From NCBI RefSeq assembly GCF_023806625.1, contig NZ_JAMTDX010000008.1:124001-188000 (forward strand): DNA of 64,000 nt, in the 5' to 3' direction. Position 1 is the stretch's first letter. The number at the start of each line of letters is the position of its first letter. The notes below the pieces were generated by a model. The model worked only from the letters and a program-made list of their open reading frames with translations, was not told the origin of the DNA and made no database searches. Of this stretch, positions 30,901 through 37,460 are shown piece by piece. A program made the translations under genes and the position numbers. The stretch is from Accumulibacter sp. Lineage in GTDB: Bacteria > Pseudomonadota > Gammaproteobacteria > Burkholderiales > Rhodocyclaceae.

Positions 30901-31704
30901 ATGGAAGAGACGGACCTCGCGGCACCAGAAGAACCGGTACCGGTCGGTTTCGAGATCGAACGCCGCGACGATTACGGCCGCTACCTGATCCGCGCGCGAG
31001 CCGAAGTCGTCGCCATCCTGCGCCTGCTGGTTCAGCGAAAGTCGCTGATCAGCGCCTATTTCAACGATCGCCGATCCTTTTTGCTGACCGCCATTCTGGA
31101 GGTCGACAGCCAGGCAGGCGAACTGATCATCGACTGCAGCCGCGACGCGAACATCAACCGGCAGGCTCTGCTGGCCGACAGGCTGACGATGACCACGACA
31201 CTCGACAAGGTCAAGGTGCAGTTCGTCCTCGGTCGGCTCGACGAGACGCAGAGCGGCGGGCTGCCCGCTTTCAAGGCAGCGATCCCCGCAGAGATGCTGA
31301 GGCTGCAGCGACGTGAACACTACCGGCTGACAACCCCGATCAGCCGGCCGGTGAAACTCCAGACGACGATCCGTCGCCCGGACGGCAGCGCGCTGGCCGC
31401 CGATGCGACCCTTCTCGACATCAGCGGCGGGGGTATCGGCCTGATGGCCACCCCGCTGCTCGCCGGACTGATCGCCCGTGGTGCGGTGCTCGGCAACTGC
31501 AAGGTGACGTTGCCCGAGGAAGGCTTGCTGGTCGCCGACCTCGGCGTGCGCAACCGGATCGAGATGACCACCCGCGGTGGCGCGCGGTACGTGCGCCTCG
31601 GCTGCCAGTTCATCGGCCTGCCGGGGATCCGGATGAACATGGTCCAGCGCTACATCGCGCGCGTCGAACGCGAACGCAAGGCCAGACTCAGCGGCCTGGC
31701 CTAG
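30901..31704 (+). CDS. ycgR: Flagellar brake protein YcgR (PilZ domain)
   Basis: 267 residues. N-terminal YcgR domain (about 15-130) and C-terminal PilZ domain with the cyclic-di-GMP motif RREHYR (137-142) and DISGGGIGL (173-181). On binding c-di-GMP it slows or biases the flagellar motor. Last gene of the plus-strand flagellar run; the GGDEF protein at 56 kb is one possible source of the second messenger. Confidence 0.93.
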   Translation: MEETDLAAPEEPVPVGFEIERRDDYGRYLIRARAEVVAILRLLVQRKSLISAYFNDRRSFLLTAILEVDSQAGELIIDCSRDANINRQALLADRLTMTTTLDKVKVQFVLGRLDETQSGGLPAFKAAIPAEMLRLQRREHYRLTTPISRPVKLQTTIRRPDGSALAADATLLDISGGGIGLMATPLLAGLIARGAVLGNCKVTLPEEGLLVADLGVRNRIEMTTRGGARYVRLGCQFIGLPGIRMNMVQRYIARVERERKARLSGLA

Positions 31705-31724
31705 AGTCCAGCAAGGCCGGGGGC

Positions 31725-32093
31725 CTAGAAGCCGACCGCCAGCAGCGCCCAGGCGGCGATCACCGTCCCGACCAACGCCAGACCGTAACAGACCAGCTTG
31801 GCGCCCGTTCCGGCATGCACACCGACATCGTGCAGGCTGTGGAAAATGCGGTGGGCCGCGTGCCAGAGAAACAGCGCGATGACCGCAAGGATGAACGCCT
31901 TGCCTGCCCAGTTCCTGGCGAAAGCGAGCACGTGCGCATAACTCATGGTGTCCGCCGGCAAGAGCAGACCGAGAGGCACTGCCAGACCGGTGATGAACAC
32001 GAGCATCGGTCCGATCAGCGCGGAGAGCATCCCTCCAGCCCCGAAGAGCGCCCAGAAGATCGGAGCGTTCGAGCGTTTCAGCGTCGGTTTCAT
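31725..32093 (-). CDS. frdD: Fumarate reductase membrane subunit D
   Basis: 122 residues, three membrane spans. Matches E. coli FrdD in length and in KRSNAPIFWALFGAGGMLSA and LWHAAHRIFHSLHDVGV. With FrdC it anchors the catalytic dimer to the inner membrane and forms the quinol sites, without haem. The ATG overlaps the frdC stop (ATGA). Ends 20 bases from the convergent ycgR gene. Confidence 0.96.
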   Translation of the reverse strand: MKPTLKRSNAPIFWALFGAGGMLSALIGPMLVFITGLAVPLGLLLPADTMSYAHVLAFARNWAGKAFILAVIALFLWHAAHRIFHSLHDVGVHAGTGAKLVCYGLALVGTVIAAWALLAVGF

Positions 32094-32488
32094 CGGACCA
32101 TCCCCCAGACCACACCGAGCAGGATCAGGCTGGCCACGACTGCCGCGGCGAGGCCTCCCCCGGTGATCACCCAGGCGGGCAACCGCTGCCCTTCGACGAT
32201 CACCGGCGGCATCGTGCGCGGCATGATCTTGAACCAGGTGAAGCTGTGGTAAGCGAGCGCGGCGAGCGCGAAAAGGTGAAACCCGACATACCACGGATTC
32301 TTCAGCGCCGCGAGCCAGGCGTTCCATGCCGCCTCACCCTCGGCGAGACGGACCAGGCCGGCGAGCAGGATGCCCGCGTAGGCGGCGACGAACAGGGCGG
32401 TTCCCTCGTGAATCATGTACTCGACGAAATACGGATTCCTGCGCCACCAGCCATCCATCGAGCGGACATAAGGACGACGCTTGCTCAC
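32090..32488 (-). CDS. frdC: Fumarate reductase membrane subunit C
   Basis: 132 residues, three membrane spans. Opens like E. coli FrdC (KRRPYVR) and keeps Glu28 in IHEGTA, at the place of the Glu that shapes the quinol site in E. coli. No haem-binding His pair is expected in this subclass. The GTG start at 32488 overlaps the frdB stop (GTGA) and has AAAGGAGGTG upstream; the frame is open upstream inside frdB but unused. Confidence 0.95.
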
Positions 32489-33240
32489 CTGGCACCTCCT
32501 TTCGGAGCGAGAAACCGGAGAAAATAGTCGATCGCGCTGTTGGTCTTGTTCTGGTTGACGGCGTTGGCCGGGTCCACGTGTTTGGGACAGACCTCCGAGC
32601 AATAGCCGACCGCCGTGCAGTTGAACACGCCGTCCTCGGAGTTGACCAGTTCCATCCGTTCAGCCTTGCCGCCATCGCGCGAGTCGGCGTTGTAGCGGTG
32701 CAGCAGCGCCAGGGCCGCGGGGCCGACGAAGCGTGAATTGAGGCCGAACTGGGGACATGCCGCGTAACACAGCAAACAGTTGATGCACGAACTGAACTGC
32801 TCGTAGGCGCCGAGCTGCTCGGGCGTCTGCAGGTACTCACCCTCGGACAGCGTCCGAGCCTCCCTGGGGATGATGTACGGCTGGATGCTTTCGAGCTTCT
32901 CGATGAATCCCTCCATATTGACCACCAGATCGCGCTCGATCGGGAAATGCGCCAGCGCCTCGACGCGGACCCGCGCCGGATAGTAGTCACGAAGGAAGGT
33001 CTGGCACGACAGGCTCGGCACGCCGTTGATCATCATCCCGCAACTGCCACAGATGGCCATGCGGCACGACCAGCGGAAACTCAACGAGCCGTCGAGGTGG
33101 TCCTTGATGTACTGCACACCCTGGAGGACCGACATGTCGTCGGTGAACGGGATCTCGAAAACCTGTGCGTGCGGTTCCGTGTCGTTCTCTGGGTGATAGC
33201 GCAGCACTTCGATCTCGATAGTTTTCTGACCTTCAGCCAT
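32485..33240 (-). CDS. frdB: Fumarate reductase iron-sulfur subunit
   Basis: 251 residues. All cluster ligands are visible: [2Fe-2S] Cys59, 64, 67, 79 ([20 protein letters not shown]...); [4Fe-4S] Cys152, 155, 158 with Cys218; [3Fe-4S] Cys162, 208, 214. Shuttles electrons from the quinol site to FrdA. Very close to the enteric FrdB in motif order. The ATG at 33240 overlaps the frdA end by eight bases. Confidence 0.97.
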
Positions 33241-35017
33241 GGGACGCCTTCCTTTCCTGCTCGGCCTGCTCGCCGGCAGCACCGTAGGCGCGGGTACCCG
33301 GCTGCGACCTGGTGATCCTCACGGAGCCGTAGTCGATTCGCGGCGGACCCCCAGCCACGTAATGTGCCTGTGAATGCTTGAGGAAATTGACGTCGTCGCG
33401 CTGCTCGAAGCCGTCGAGCCGCTGATGGGCGCCCCGCGACTCCCGCCGCTCCAGCGCCGAGCAGGCCATCGCCTGGGCGACGTCGAGCTGGTACTCGAGT
33501 TCGATGGCCAGCAGCCACTCGGTGTTCCAGACGCTCGACTGATCGTCGAGGCGGAGGTTCCGGAAACGCTGCTTGAGCTCTTCGAGCTTGTCGCAGGTCT
33601 GCTGCATGGTCGCCGCCAGACGATAGATCCCGCAACCATCTTCCATCGTCTGCGCCATTTCCTTGCGCAATACCGCAATGCGCTCGTTGCCGCGGCCGAG
33701 TTTGAGTCCCTGGACGCGCCGCTCGACTGCCTGCGCCTGTCGGTTGAGGCTTGCCGAATTGCCCGCGGCAACTGACCGGGCGAATCGTGCCGCCTCGACT
33801 CCGGAGACCTTGCCGAAGACCAGCAGTTCCGAGAGCGAATTCGACCCGAGCCGGTTGGCGCCGTGGATCCCGACACTCGAGCATTCGCCGGCGGCGTACA
33901 GACCGGGCAGCGGCGATGCACAGCGACCGTCGACGAGGATCCCGCCCATCGTGTAGTGCACCGCCGGGCGAACCGGAATCGGTGTGCGCGCCGGATCGAT
34001 GCCGAGAAACTGCTCGGCGAGCTCGTAGATTTGTGGCAGACGCTCGCGCAGCTTGGCTTCGCCGAGGTGACGCAGGTCGAGATGGACGACCGACCCGTAC
34101 TGCCCCTCTATCGTCCGGCCTTTCTGCTGCTCGTACCAGAACGCCTGGCTCAGGCGGTCGCGCGGCCCGAGTTCCATGAACTTGTTGCGCGGCTTCTCCT
34201 CGGCCGGACCGAGTCCGTAGTCCTGGAGATAGCGATAGCCGTCCTTGTTCACCAGAAAGCCACCCTCGCCGCGACAGGCTTCGGTAAACAGCAGACCGGT
34301 CCCCGGCATGCACGTGGGGTGATACTGGACGAACTCCATGTCGCGTAGCGGAACGCCGTGACGGTACGCAAGCGCCATGCCGTCACCGGTCACGACGCCA
34401 CCATTGGTGTTCTCGCGGAAAACGCGGCCCGCCCCGCCTGTGGCGATGACCACCGCTCGCCCCTCGATGCACAGCAGTTCACCGGAGGCGATCTCGATCG
34501 CCACGACCCCCTGGACACGACCGTCGTCAACCAGCAGATCGACGCAGAAATGCTCGTCGAATCGCTTGATCGAAGGGTATTTGATCGAGGTCTGGAACAG
34601 CGTGTGCAGCATGTGGAAGCCGGTCTTGTCGGCGGCGAACCAGGTGCGCTCGATCTTCATGCCACCGAAAGCGCGCACGTTGACCCGCCCGTCGGGCGTG
34701 CGGCTCCACGGGCAGCCCCAGTGCTCCAGCTGCGTCAGCTCTTCGCTGCAATGGGCGACGAAATAGTCGACGACGTCCTGCTCGCACAACCAGTCGCCAC
34801 CATGAACCGTGTCGTTGAAATGGTACTCGAGGCTATCGCTGGCCTGCTTGACCCCCGCCGAACCCCCTTCGGCGGCGACCGTGTGGCTGCGCATCGGATA
34901 GACCTTGGATACCAGGGCGATCCGCAGCTCGGGATCGGCTTCGGCTACAGCGATGGCCGCTCGCAGGCCCGCGCCACCGCCACCGACGATGACGACATCA
35001 GCCCTGTAACTCTCCAT
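33233..35017 (-). CDS. frdA: Fumarate reductase flavoprotein subunit
   Basis: 594 residues. FAD-binding [16 protein letters not shown] near the N-terminus, covalent-FAD His45 in [11 protein letters not shown], and active-site blocks [36 protein letters not shown] and HYTMGGI. Sequence follows the E. coli FrdA pattern nearly throughout rather than the SdhA pattern, so fumarate reduction is the likely working direction. Ribosome site AAGGAG is six bases before the ATG. Follows rquA by 84 bases. Confidence 0.97.
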
Positions 35018-35033
35018 GCTCGCTCCTTTCTCG

Positions 35034-35052
35034 GCCGGGCTCTCCGCCCGGC
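35034..35052 (-). other. GC-rich hairpin between rquA and frdA
   Basis: GCCGGGC and GCCCGGC form a seven-pair stem with a five-base loop in the 84-base gap just ahead of the frdA ribosome site. There is no T run, so it is not a normal terminator; it may stabilise or process the message, or partly separate rquA from frd expression. Confidence 0.45.
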
Positions 35053-35101
35053 GCGGTCAACATCTGGAGTCCCGCAATTCCCGATCACGGAACCCGTCTG
35101 A

Positions 35102-35848
35102 CTATCGATCCACGCTTCGATCGACAACCCTGAGCGTCAACATCTGATACATCCCTCCGAAGAAGCTCTGCCTGCCGACCGTCTCGTAGCTGCCGTCCTG
35201 CGGCAACCAGGCCTCGACGTCTTCACTGAACAGATCCCTGGCGAAGGGCTCGAGCCGATCGAGGACCGGCTTCCAGAAGTAGCGAAGCGGGTTGAGACGA
35301 CTCGGGGGAGCATAATCGACGATGGTCAGCGTCCCGCCGGGACGGACGACCCTGAGCGCCTCGGTCAGCGTCTTCTCGCGGACCCCCTGCGGCTGCTCGT
35401 GCAGCAGGAAGAAGAGCAGCGCCCGGTCGAAACTTGCGTCGGCAAAGGTCAGCGCGGCCGAATCCATGCAATGCAGGCCGATCGGCGCATCGCTCGCCAA
35501 CTTCGCCGACAGGTTGTCGAGCTGGATCGGCAGGATATCGACGACTTCGAGCAGACCGCCCGGACCCACGCAATCGACGAGACGCTGGGTCAGATCTCCG
35601 TAGGCACAGGCGATCTGCAGTGTCCGCCCCGGCAGGTCGTGGCCGAACTCGTCGAGAACGGCGTTGCACAGGCGCCGGTAATTTCCCCAGAGAATCAGAT
35701 TGACCAGCCACTGCCTCTCGAAAACGTGTACGGCTCGCGGATGGACGTAAGCCCACCAGTAATGCGCCTGGAGATAGTGGGGCACAGCTGGCAGGCCCTC
35801 GTTGACGGCCACGCAGGTGACCGCAGTCTGGTCGACGCTGTTCTTCAT
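35102..35848 (-). CDS. rquA: Rhodoquinone biosynthesis protein RquA
   Basis: 248 residues. RquA family: a SAM-dependent enzyme of methyltransferase fold that replaces a methoxy group of ubiquinone with an amino group, giving rhodoquinone. The signature YWWAYVHPRAVHVFERQW (30-47) followed by LVNLILWGNY, and the altered SAM motif LQIACAYGD (77-85) in place of the usual acidic GxGxG loop, single it out from ordinary UbiE/COQ5 methyltransferases. First member of a run into frdABCD; 22 bases behind tatD. The ATG at 35848 fits the family N-terminus, although its ribosome site is weak. Assignment is from remembered motifs plus context. Confidence 0.85.
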   Translation of the reverse strand: MKNSVDQTAVTCVAVNEGLPAVPHYLQAHYWWAYVHPRAVHVFERQWLVNLILWGNYRRLCNAVLDEFGHDLPGRTLQIACAYGDLTQRLVDCVGPGGLLEVVDILPIQLDNLSAKLASDAPIGLHCMDSAALTFADASFDRALLFFLLHEQPQGVREKTLTEALRVVRPGGTLTIVDYAPPSRLNPLRYFWKPVLDRLEPFARDLFSEDVEAWLPQDGSYETVGRQSFFGGMYQMLTLRVVDRSVDR

Positions 35849-35870
35849 GATGGGGCCACACCCTACCCGA

Positions 35871-36659
35871 TCAGATCGGCAAACGCAACTCGGGCAGAAC
35901 GGCGGCTGCGTTTGCCGAAGTGACGCGGGCCAGTTCCCCGGCCGGGATGCCGCGCAACCCGGCGAGCAGCGCGTTGATCCGTGGCAGCTGATCGGGCGTG
36001 TTGCGCGCCCCCGCGAGCCATTCGGGAGGCATGTCCGGCGAATCGGTCTCGAGGACGATCGCCTCCAGCGGAAGGGATGTGGCCAACTGCCGGATGCGCG
36101 TCGAGCGGGCATGGGTCACCCCCCCGCCGAAGCCGAGCCGGAAACCGAGCCGGATCAGTTCGTCGGCCTGCTGCCGGCTACCGTTGAACGCATGCGCGAT
36201 GCCTCCAGGCACCGGGATCCGGCGCAGGTGCGCGAGCACCAGATCGACGGCCCGGCGAACGTGCAGGAGCACGGGAAGCTGCGCCTGCCGAGCGATCTTG
36301 AGTTGCTCGACGAAGAAGTGCTCCTGTTTGGCCAGGTCGGGCTCGGCGACGAAGCGGTCGAGGCCGATCTCGCCGACAGCCACCGCAGGAAGCCGGCCGC
36401 CCCGGCTGTCGGCCAGCTGCTCGCGAAGCCGTTCGAGGTCGGCTTCGGCGGCCTGAGCGACGTACAGCGGGTGGATGCCGTAAGCCGGAAAGCAGCCGGG
36501 GAGATCCGCGCAGCAGGCGCGCACGGCGGCGAAACTCGCCCGGTCGACCGACGGAACGACGATTGCCGACACCCCGGCGTGCCGCGCCGCCTCGGCCACC
36601 CGCTGGCGATCCCCGGAGAACTCGGTGGCAGCGAGGTGGCAATGCGTGTCGACGAGCAA
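35871..36659 (-). CDS. TatD family metal-dependent DNase/hydrolase
   Basis: 262 residues. TIM-barrel hydrolase with VDTHCHLA (3-10), AVGEIGLD, VLLHVRRA, and LETDSPDMPPE near the end, all TatD metal-site motifs. Family members are 3'-5' exonucleases in DNA repair or degradation. Seven bases behind the enoyl-CoA hydratase gene and ahead of rquA on the same strand. Confidence 0.94.
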   Translation of the reverse strand: MLVDTHCHLAATEFSGDRQRVAEAARHAGVSAIVVPSVDRASFAAVRACCADLPGCFPAYGIHPLYVAQAAEADLERLREQLADSRGGRLPAVAVGEIGLDRFVAEPDLAKQEHFFVEQLKIARQAQLPVLLHVRRAVDLVLAHLRRIPVPGGIAHAFNGSRQQADELIRLGFRLGFGGGVTHARSTRIRQLATSLPLEAIVLETDSPDMPPEWLAGARNTPDQLPRINALLAGLRGIPAGELARVTSANAAAVLPELRLPI

Positions 36660-36665
36660 GACCGT

Positions 36666-37460
36666 CTAGCCTCGCGCGTAGTTCGCCGGACGGCGCTCGA
36701 AGAAGGCGGCCAGGCCTTCACGGAAATCGGGCTCCGCACCACAGGCGGCAAAGGCGCGTTGCTCCGCATGCAGCTGTGCTTCGAGCGAAGCGGCCAGCGA
36801 CTGGTTGAGCAGCGCCTTCGTCCGCGCCAGGGCACCTGCCGGGCCGGCAGCCATTCGCCGTGCCAGACTCAGCGTCTCCGAAGCCAGATCGGCCAGCGGA
36901 AGAACCCGGTTGACCAGACCGAGCTCGCGCGCCCTGATCGCGTCGAAACGCTCACCGAGCAACGCAATCTCCATCGCCTGCCTCAGCCCGACCTGCCGCG
37001 GCAGCGACCAGGTCGCGCCGCCATCCGGAGACAGCCCGATATTGCAGTAGGCGAGCGTGAAATAGGCGTTGTCAGCGGCGAGGACGAGGTCGCAGGCCAT
37101 CATCAGCGACATGCCGAAGCCGGCAACGGCACCCTGTACCCCGGCGACCACCGGCTTGCCCATCCCCCTGAGGTTGAGAACCGACGCGTGGAGATCGGCC
37201 AGCATTCCCTCGAAGCGGGCCTGGCGCTGGTGCGGCGGCTGGGCAAGCTGTTCACGGAACCACTTCAGATCGCCGCCGGCCATGAAATGATCTCCGGCTC
37301 CGCGCAGCACGACGGCGCGGACCTGCGGATCGAAGGCAATTTTCGTCGTCAGCTCGCGCAACTGCTCGATCATCAGCAGGTTGAGCGCATTCAGCGACTC
37401 CGGGCGATTCAGCGTGAGGACGGCGACCTCGTCGCTGATCTCGAGAACGACAGTGCTCAT
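36666..37460 (-). CDS. Enoyl-CoA hydratase/isomerase family protein
   Basis: 264 residues. Crotonase fold with oxyanion-hole segments GDHFMAGGDLKWF and GVQGAVAGFGMSLMMACDL, then GLSPDGGATWSLPR where the usual second catalytic Glu position carries Asp. Could act in fatty acid, phenylacetate or branched-chain degradation; the subtype closest by motif is the PaaG/1,2-epoxyphenylacetyl-CoA isomerase-like group. Paired with the paaK gene 16 kb away only in theme, not in linkage. Confidence 0.88.
   Translation of the reverse strand: MSTVVLEISDEVAVLTLNRPESLNALNLLMIEQLRELTTKIAFDPQVRAVVLRGAGDHFMAGGDLKWFREQLAQPPHQRQARFEGMLADLHASVLNLRGMGKPVVAGVQGAVAGFGMSLMMACDLVLAADNAYFTLAYCNIGLSPDGGATWSLPRQVGLRQAMEIALLGERFDAIRARELGLVNRVLPLADLASETLSLARRMAAGPAGALARTKALLNQSLAASLEAQLHAEQRAFAACGAEPDFREGLAAFFERRPANYARG

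Follow-up and report, generated by a model that had tools for sequence, protein, structure and literature searches.

We found that a 64,000-nucleotide stretch of an Accumulibacter sp. genome (contig NZ_JAMTDX010000008.1, positions 124,001 to 188,000; hereafter the window) carries rquA, a gene for rhodoquinone biosynthesis, directly ahead of frdABCD, the genes of an Escherichia coli-type fumarate reductase (FRD), and that the five genes are a real gene module. We consider it likely that this is an anaerobic respiratory module, in which rhodoquinol drives the fumarate reductase during the anaerobic phase of Accumulibacter, a polyphosphate-accumulating organism of phosphorus-removing sludge. An earlier reading made from the DNA letters (the sequence-only reading) had proposed such a pairing, and its coordinates, strand and gene order for rquA-frdABCD all match ours, as does the direct linkage of rquA and frd on one strand across an 84-base gap. 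The most notable features were the genus-wide fixation of the pair set against a patchy menaquinone, and a parallel pair in competing glycogen accumulators.

First, the identity of the RquA protein was examined. It scored 283.7 bits against the NCBIfam equivalog NF038261 (cut-off 175) and no higher than 35.2 bits against the UbiE models, and its best match was thus RquA and not UbiE, in agreement with the sequence-only reading. The protein carries YWWAYVHPRAVHVFERQW together with LQIACAYGD, which replaces the canonical S-adenosylmethionine (SAM) motif I on a by-eye comparison with published descriptions (PMC9814641, PMC5953543). RquA uses SAM as the donor of the amino group that it places on ubiquinone (PMC9814641), and an altered SAM motif I has been reported for it (PMC5953543, section 8). 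Across 21 RquAs, Asp104 was invariant and Asp129 nearly so; their 25-residue spacing is that of the SAM-contacting Asp118 and Asp143 of R. rubrum RquA, the two pairs being equated by spacing only. The window protein shared 31-59% identity with 20 further RquAs of its order and 51-83% with the best 80 of 523 confirmed relatives, among which the closest were Candidatus Accumulibacter species (79-83%); the collection of species genomes scanned for these relatives may omit the window genome's own records. It was also noted that Rhodovulum sp. PH10 and two Rhodoplanes (L064, L077, L079) hold a tandem pair of rquA-like genes, of which the first shares 55-61% and the second 50-53% identity with the window RquA.

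The assignment to the E. coli type was borne out by FrdA (1052 bits against NF006686, cut-off 854; 958.6 against TIGR01176, cut-off 932.7), FrdB (425.8 against NF009051, cut-off 333) and FrdD (151 against NF003977, cut-off 60; 151.7 against Pfam PF02313), with FrdC assigned by Pfam PF02300 (150 bits, cut-off 24.2). The E. coli fumarate reductase 1kf6 was the top solved relative for each of the four subunits. Consecutive genes overlap, by 8 bases for frdA and frdB and by 4 bases each for frdB and frdC and for frdC and frdD. The residues that we take to form the quinol site (FrdB Lys228, FrdC Glu29 and FrdD Trp14) were kept in all covering sequences of the rhodoquinone set (39, 40 and 39 rows, respectively) and were identical between the menaquinone and rhodoquinone sets, so neither quinol is excluded by the site. 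At the FrdC position that presumably corresponds to Arg28 in E. coli numbering, His was found in 17 of the 40 rhodoquinone-set rows (the window and its closest relatives among them) and Met in three more, against Arg in 7/7 menaquinone-set rows. Another FrdC position was Asn in 7/7 menaquinone-set rows and His in all 15 Accumulibacter rows and 15 of the 25 other rhodoquinone-set rows. These FrdC residues were not used as markers of rhodoquinol versus menaquinol, given that there were only seven menaquinone rows, that kinship was uncorrected and that Arg28 is retained in half of the rhodoquinone rows.

We then assessed which quinones the window genome could supply (4.09 Mb in 114 contigs, listed as 100% complete). 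It possesses one RquA over the cut-off. Its three UbiA-family proteins are a UbiA (312 bits against a cut-off of 275) and a pair of heme O synthases, none of them being MenA or MqnP, and its best MenD match reached 82.9 bits, below the cut-off of 244.2; a complete menaquinone pathway was not seen in a search that took in these markers and not the other men genes or the futalosine genes mqnA-D. Three U32-family proteins were also present, namely an adjacent UbiU (546 bits, cut-off 440) and UbiV (359 bits, cut-off 275), which are the O2-independent pair for ubiquinone hydroxylation, and a TrhP-like protein. The genome thus holds ubiquinone genes and rquA; with MenD under its cut-off and MenA and MqnP not found, the search turned up no low-potential quinone other than rhodoquinone. 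Neither this outcome nor the RquA scores refute the sequence-only reading.

From these genes, we propose that RquA, with SAM and Mn2+, would swap a methoxy for an amino group on ubiquinone-8 (chain length assumed) and so yield rhodoquinone, with a potential some 160-170 mV below that of ubiquinone (-63 mV vs about +100 to +110 mV; PMC9814641, PMC5953543). In the anaerobic feed phase, NADH derived from glycogen would reduce rhodoquinone by way of complex I or another NADH dehydrogenase, the quinol site of FrdBCD would oxidise the rhodoquinol, and FrdAB would convert fumarate to succinate as its physiological direction, the succinate going on to propionyl-CoA and storage polymer. The E. coli-type FRD itself pumps no protons, and any proton motive force would therefore arise from the NADH dehydrogenase side.

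The linkage was found to be fixed across the genus. In a sample of 28 Accumulibacter genomes, with rquA called by match to the window protein and MenD by cut-off, rquA was present in 26 and FrdD likewise in 26, and each of the 26 genomes with rquA had an frdA match directly downstream of it. The exceptions appear to reflect limits of assembly: rquA is missing from G402, whose frdA runs off the contig end; frdD is missing from G401, whose contig ends within frdA; and G414, which is 72% complete, has neither. Interrupted rquA genes were encountered in G406 (where frdA is interrupted too) and G420. Among the 26 rquA-positive genomes, MenD appeared to have been gained or lost at least four to five times, with five changes on a tree of rquA-frdA DNA (11 rows with MenD and 15 without), at least four of them forced by well-supported branches. 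This indicates a patchy menaquinone synthesis in a genus where rquA-frd is fixed. A 2014 survey had already noted that Ca. Accumulibacter phosphatis has the classical menaquinone pathway (PMC3914697); the survey cites Accumulibacter once, for menaquinone and ubiquinone genes, and treats rhodoquinone elsewhere.

A similar association was noted beyond the genus. Among 399 genomes of the order, RquA was over its cut-off in 36, FrdD was present in 13 and MenD was over its cut-off in 25. FrdD occurred together with RquA in 7 of its 13 genomes, where 1.2 were expected (Fisher exact test, p = 3e-5, kinship uncorrected), and together with MenD in 0/13, which against an expected 0.8 is not telling alone; RquA and MenD coincided twice (2.3 expected), with no sign of mutual avoidance. 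The two genes were adjacent in four of the seven genomes holding RquA and FrdD (G000, the window genome, and G030, G203 and G264) and apart in G064, G103 and G329. If the two were placed at random in a 3.5-Mb genome, the chance of finding them within 5 kb of each other would be about 0.3% in each case. Because adjacency was seen in 26/26 genomes of the genus and 4/7 of the order, chance was rejected as its explanation.

At the level of the class, FrdD was found in 7 of 321 genomes, one of them G000, so that six were added; a class-level FrdD table was dropped for its few positives. RquA was over the cut-off and linked to frd in G493 and G623, while in G635 it fell just below (173.4 bits) and lay on a different contig from frd. 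The 19 FrdD-positive genomes of both samples thus include 10 with RquA, counting the one just below the cut-off; MenA was typed in a minority of these RquA-positive ones. We also noted three genomes (G142, G299 and G328) that carry frdABCD and a MenA over the cut-off with no MenD match at 1e-20; their menaquinone route may be divergent, or a gene may have been missed. MenD alone would miss menaquinone there, and it was therefore typed in these genomes by their UbiA-family proteins.

We sought to further characterize the geometry of the linkage among 80 named RquA loci (ARRANGEMENTS). frd lay beside rquA in 33, none was seen in 26 (each with at least 5 kb available on either side of rquA) and 21 could not be judged; the linked loci include L057, with frd 3.3 kb away, and L072, with an frdA match only. 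Excluding the 15 Accumulibacter-group loci, the two were linked in 18/44 judged. Three geometries were encountered, with rquA lying upstream or downstream of frd on one strand, or convergent with it. When four arrangement states were placed on the RquA tree (96 rows), a quick method gave at least 12 changes, on a tree with many weak forks and one bad long branch (L255) and with short whole-genome loci that can be scored only as linked or unknown, a bias toward linked that touches 4 of the 38 rows so scored. The number of changes indicates that the rquA-frd pair was joined, or broken, several times. Two further loci (L016 and L017, from G265 and G134) place a distant RquA (31% identical) beside another type of complex II, with FrdB about 26% identical, which means that linkage of rquA to complex II is not limited to the E. 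coli-type FRD. L057 comes from a metagenome bin titled Bordetella parapertussis and has rquA with a convergent frd, its FrdA being 78% like that of the window; the title may be a misassignment.

Several observations weigh against a rhodoquinol-driven FRD, the case for which is made here from genes. The sequence-only reading held that this lineage would otherwise have ubiquinone only, which stands for the window genome and fails for the genus: MenD was over the cut-off in 12/28 Accumulibacter genomes, 11 of them with rquA, and FRD could use menaquinol there. RquA occurs without FrdD in 29 of the 36 RquA-positive genomes of the order, and frd was absent from the flanks in 26 of the 59 judged named loci. 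Among the 19 FrdD-positive genomes, six have MenA over the cut-off without RquA (G142, G299, G328, G573, G675 and G684), and three have no clear low-potential quinone; in this last group (the L185-L187 set), which carries frdABCD with no RquA over the cut-off, G271 and G322 have UbiA and heme O synthase only, and G248 has in addition to these two a MenA-like protein with a weak match and one relative left untyped. FrdC reached 97.4 bits against NCBIfam NF003445, under the cut-off of 143, and no FNR-like site was found upstream of rquA, the best matches sharing no position across the genus.

The patchy MenD gives the strongest alternative its footing. RquA could make rhodoquinone while FRD is promiscuous toward quinols, the linkage then reflecting shared anaerobic expression and not a match of enzyme and cofactor, with menaquinol used in the MenD-positive species; we regard this as possible, at well under even probability, and it is compatible with rhodoquinol use in the window genome. 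The E. coli-type FRD is a menaquinol enzyme, the presumed quinol-site residues are alike in the menaquinone and rhodoquinone sets, and MenD comes and goes in the genus while rquA-frd stays. However, menaquinol is not expected in the window genome from its MenD score and the lack of a MenA or MqnP match, and FrdD and MenD never occurred together in the 399 order genomes, although no more than 0.8 such cases were expected.

It is improbable that FRD acts mainly as a succinate dehydrogenase that passes electrons from succinate to rhodoquinone or ubiquinone, with rhodoquinone serving another reductase. Complex II enzymes are reversible, which would allow it. An Accumulibacter symbiont without succinate dehydrogenase is described as depending on FRD alone (PMC13310139). 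Against this, the window genome possesses a separate forward-type sdhA (TIGR01816, 906 bits, cut-off 727) in addition to nadB, the anchors FrdC and FrdD are of the FRD type, and this FRD is linked directly to the enzyme that lowers the quinone potential; in addition, low phosphate raised frdAB transcription in one experiment, and not significantly in a second (PMC12604563). It is very improbable that the RquA is instead an ordinary methyltransferase of the UbiE/COQ5 type or a relative without activity, and this was rejected in spite of its Pfam methyltransferase fold (Ubie_methyltran, 44 bits) and of a 2026 account in which rquA of GWC2-55-46, a Desulfobacterota class, gave no rhodoquinone in E. 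coli (PMC13386864), given the model scores above, the altered SAM motif I (PMC5953543) and its position inside the RquA tree, from which a UbiE outgroup was absent.

The transcription of the module and its upstream region were also considered. The upstream tatD stops 22 bases before rquA on the same strand (35849-35870) and ends a co-directional run, gmk-spoT-dadA-ech-tatD, so rquA need not head the transcript, and its role as operon head, taken from the sequence-only reading, is unproved. The tatD product matched NF008522 at 210 bits (below the cut-off of 481) and TIGR00010 at 169 bits (below 206), and the gene lies upstream of rquA in 15/15 Accumulibacter-group loci. In these 15 relatives (L035-L048 and L053), 184-218 bases separate rquA from the end of the tatD match, compared to 22 in the window, which indicates that the leader of rquA is shorter in the window by about 175 bases, through either a real deletion or an assembly error. 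A TTGCGT-N17-TAGGGT block occurs with some base changes in all 16 sequences compared and is partly coding. A consensus sigma-70 scan of 31500-36700 gave 0 promoter-like sites and did not report this block, which is therefore a lead only as a candidate promoter of rquA-frdABCD. Control by FNR was tried and rejected, the best sites upstream of rquA in 19 loci and in the window having 3-5 mismatches to the 10 fixed bases.

The absence of a terminator-like site between rquA and frdA is consistent with co-transcription, which we infer. The spacer measures 82-110 bases in 15/15 Accumulibacter-group loci and in 23/24 genus loci, the remaining locus being a broken rquA frame. Across 24 aligned spacers (the window and 23 Accumulibacter genomes, leaving out L179 from G420, with its broken rquA frame, and the G406 pieces), the pairs of the hairpin at 35034-35052 were kept, with some compensatory changes. 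The alignment gave 12 consensus pairs, seven with compensatory change, in one or two hairpins, the second being that at 35034-35052, and the fold z-score of the window spacer was only -1.4. Spacer hairpins were not adopted as a regulatory element, with fold z-scores of 0.01 to -1.74 in five single sequences and the first hairpin not evident in the window.

Table 1. Features of the rquA-frdABCD locus, with positions counted from the first letter of the window.
Feature	Position	Strand	Description
rquA	35102-35848	-	248 amino acids; rhodoquinone biosynthesis protein RquA; NF038261 equivalog
rquA-frdA intergenic spacer	35018-35101	-	84 bases; terminator-like site absent
Hairpin GCCGGGC-GGAGA-GCCCGGC	35034-35052	-	Directly before the frdA Shine-Dalgarno sequence
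frdA, fumarate reductase flavoprotein	33233-35017	-	594 amino acids; NF006686, TIGR01176; top solved relative 1kf6_A
frdB, iron-sulfur subunit	32485-33240	-	251 amino acids; NF009051; aligned to 1kf6_B
frdC, membrane anchor	32090-32488	-	132 amino acids, GTG start; PF02300; aligned to 1kf6_C
frdD, membrane anchor	31725-32093	-	122 amino acids; NF003977, PF02313; aligned to 1kf6_D
Promoter-like block TTGCGT-N17-TAGGGT, candidate promoter of rquA-frdABCD	35860-35888	-	3' end of tatD
tatD, TatD-family-like metal-dependent hydrolase	35871-36659	-	Conserved neighbour upstream of rquA

Enhanced biological phosphorus removal hinges on the electron balance of Accumulibacter without oxygen, and its mechanism is still argued. 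An older proposal invokes a "novel quinol reductase" for the re-oxidation of quinones (PMC4930944), and a 2025 transcript study invokes fumarate reductase and proton motive force (PMC12604563), with no word beginning "quino" in its main text. Both papers count FRD among the sources of proton motive force, and it matters for this reason that FRD is not a proton pump. The fixed rquA-frdABCD unit names a likely carrier and predicts rhodoquinone in anaerobic sludge. We lean, if only slightly, toward rhodoquinone and not menaquinone being the carrier that serves fumarate reduction throughout the genus Accumulibacter in its anaerobic phase and, independently, in the competing Competibacteraceae as well. 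If so, the step in which fumarate reductase makes proton motive force would become an NADH dehydrogenase with rhodoquinone and a non-electrogenic FRD, and about four in ten Accumulibacter species would hold a second low-potential quinone, compared to a 2024 ISME J survey that found rhodoquinone seldom together with menaquinone (5/84 rquA genomes; PMC11707229). The same survey left open whether the gain of a low-potential quinone accompanies that of fumarate reductase, a question to which the order genomes bring an enrichment of FrdD with RquA, yet 29/36 RquA genomes without FrdD. The coming and going of menaquinone within one genus while rquA-frd stays offers a natural comparison of the two quinones. 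A link between rhodoquinone and Accumulibacter was not found in the open-licence literature searched; subscription papers were outside this scope, so novelty is unproven.

Compared to E. coli FrdABCD (1kf6), the window FRD has the same four subunit types and the same presumed quinol-site residues, with His in place of what we take to be FrdC Arg28, and its genes overlap. The E. coli enzyme uses menaquinol, whereas the only low-potential quinone gene found in the window genome is rquA. The two functions were also found linked in the Competibacteraceae and in Contendobacter, the latter presumably also a glycogen-accumulating competitor of Accumulibacter. In these (L098, L108, L109 and L114), frdABCD and rquA are linked on one strand as in the window, with rquA downstream of frdD, 241-297 bases between the matches and FrdA 61-62% identical to that of the window (three loci matched in one piece). 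The Competibacteraceae are glycogen-accumulating competitors of Accumulibacter (PMC4930944). In Candidatus Thiosymbion oneisti, frdABCD and rquA have been proposed to replace a missing menaquinone, in a passage that gives no gene linkage (PMC8269255), and no frd was found in the available rquA flanks of two other Thiosymbion symbionts (L090 and L110, the latter a short contig).

The pairing of rquA with complex II is already known from Stairs et al. 2018, and the window pair is not the first (PMC5953543). That study reported rquA to lie frequently no more than 15 genes from those of complex I, II or III, considered it possibly linked in transcription to complex II and suggested operons; in 12 of its bacteria a second frd/sdh operon lies elsewhere. 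Accumulibacter does not appear in its main text, and the supplementary genome list may include it. In comparison to linkage within 15 genes, the Accumulibacter pair is immediate and genus-wide, and its geometries and co-occurrence with other quinones have here been counted.

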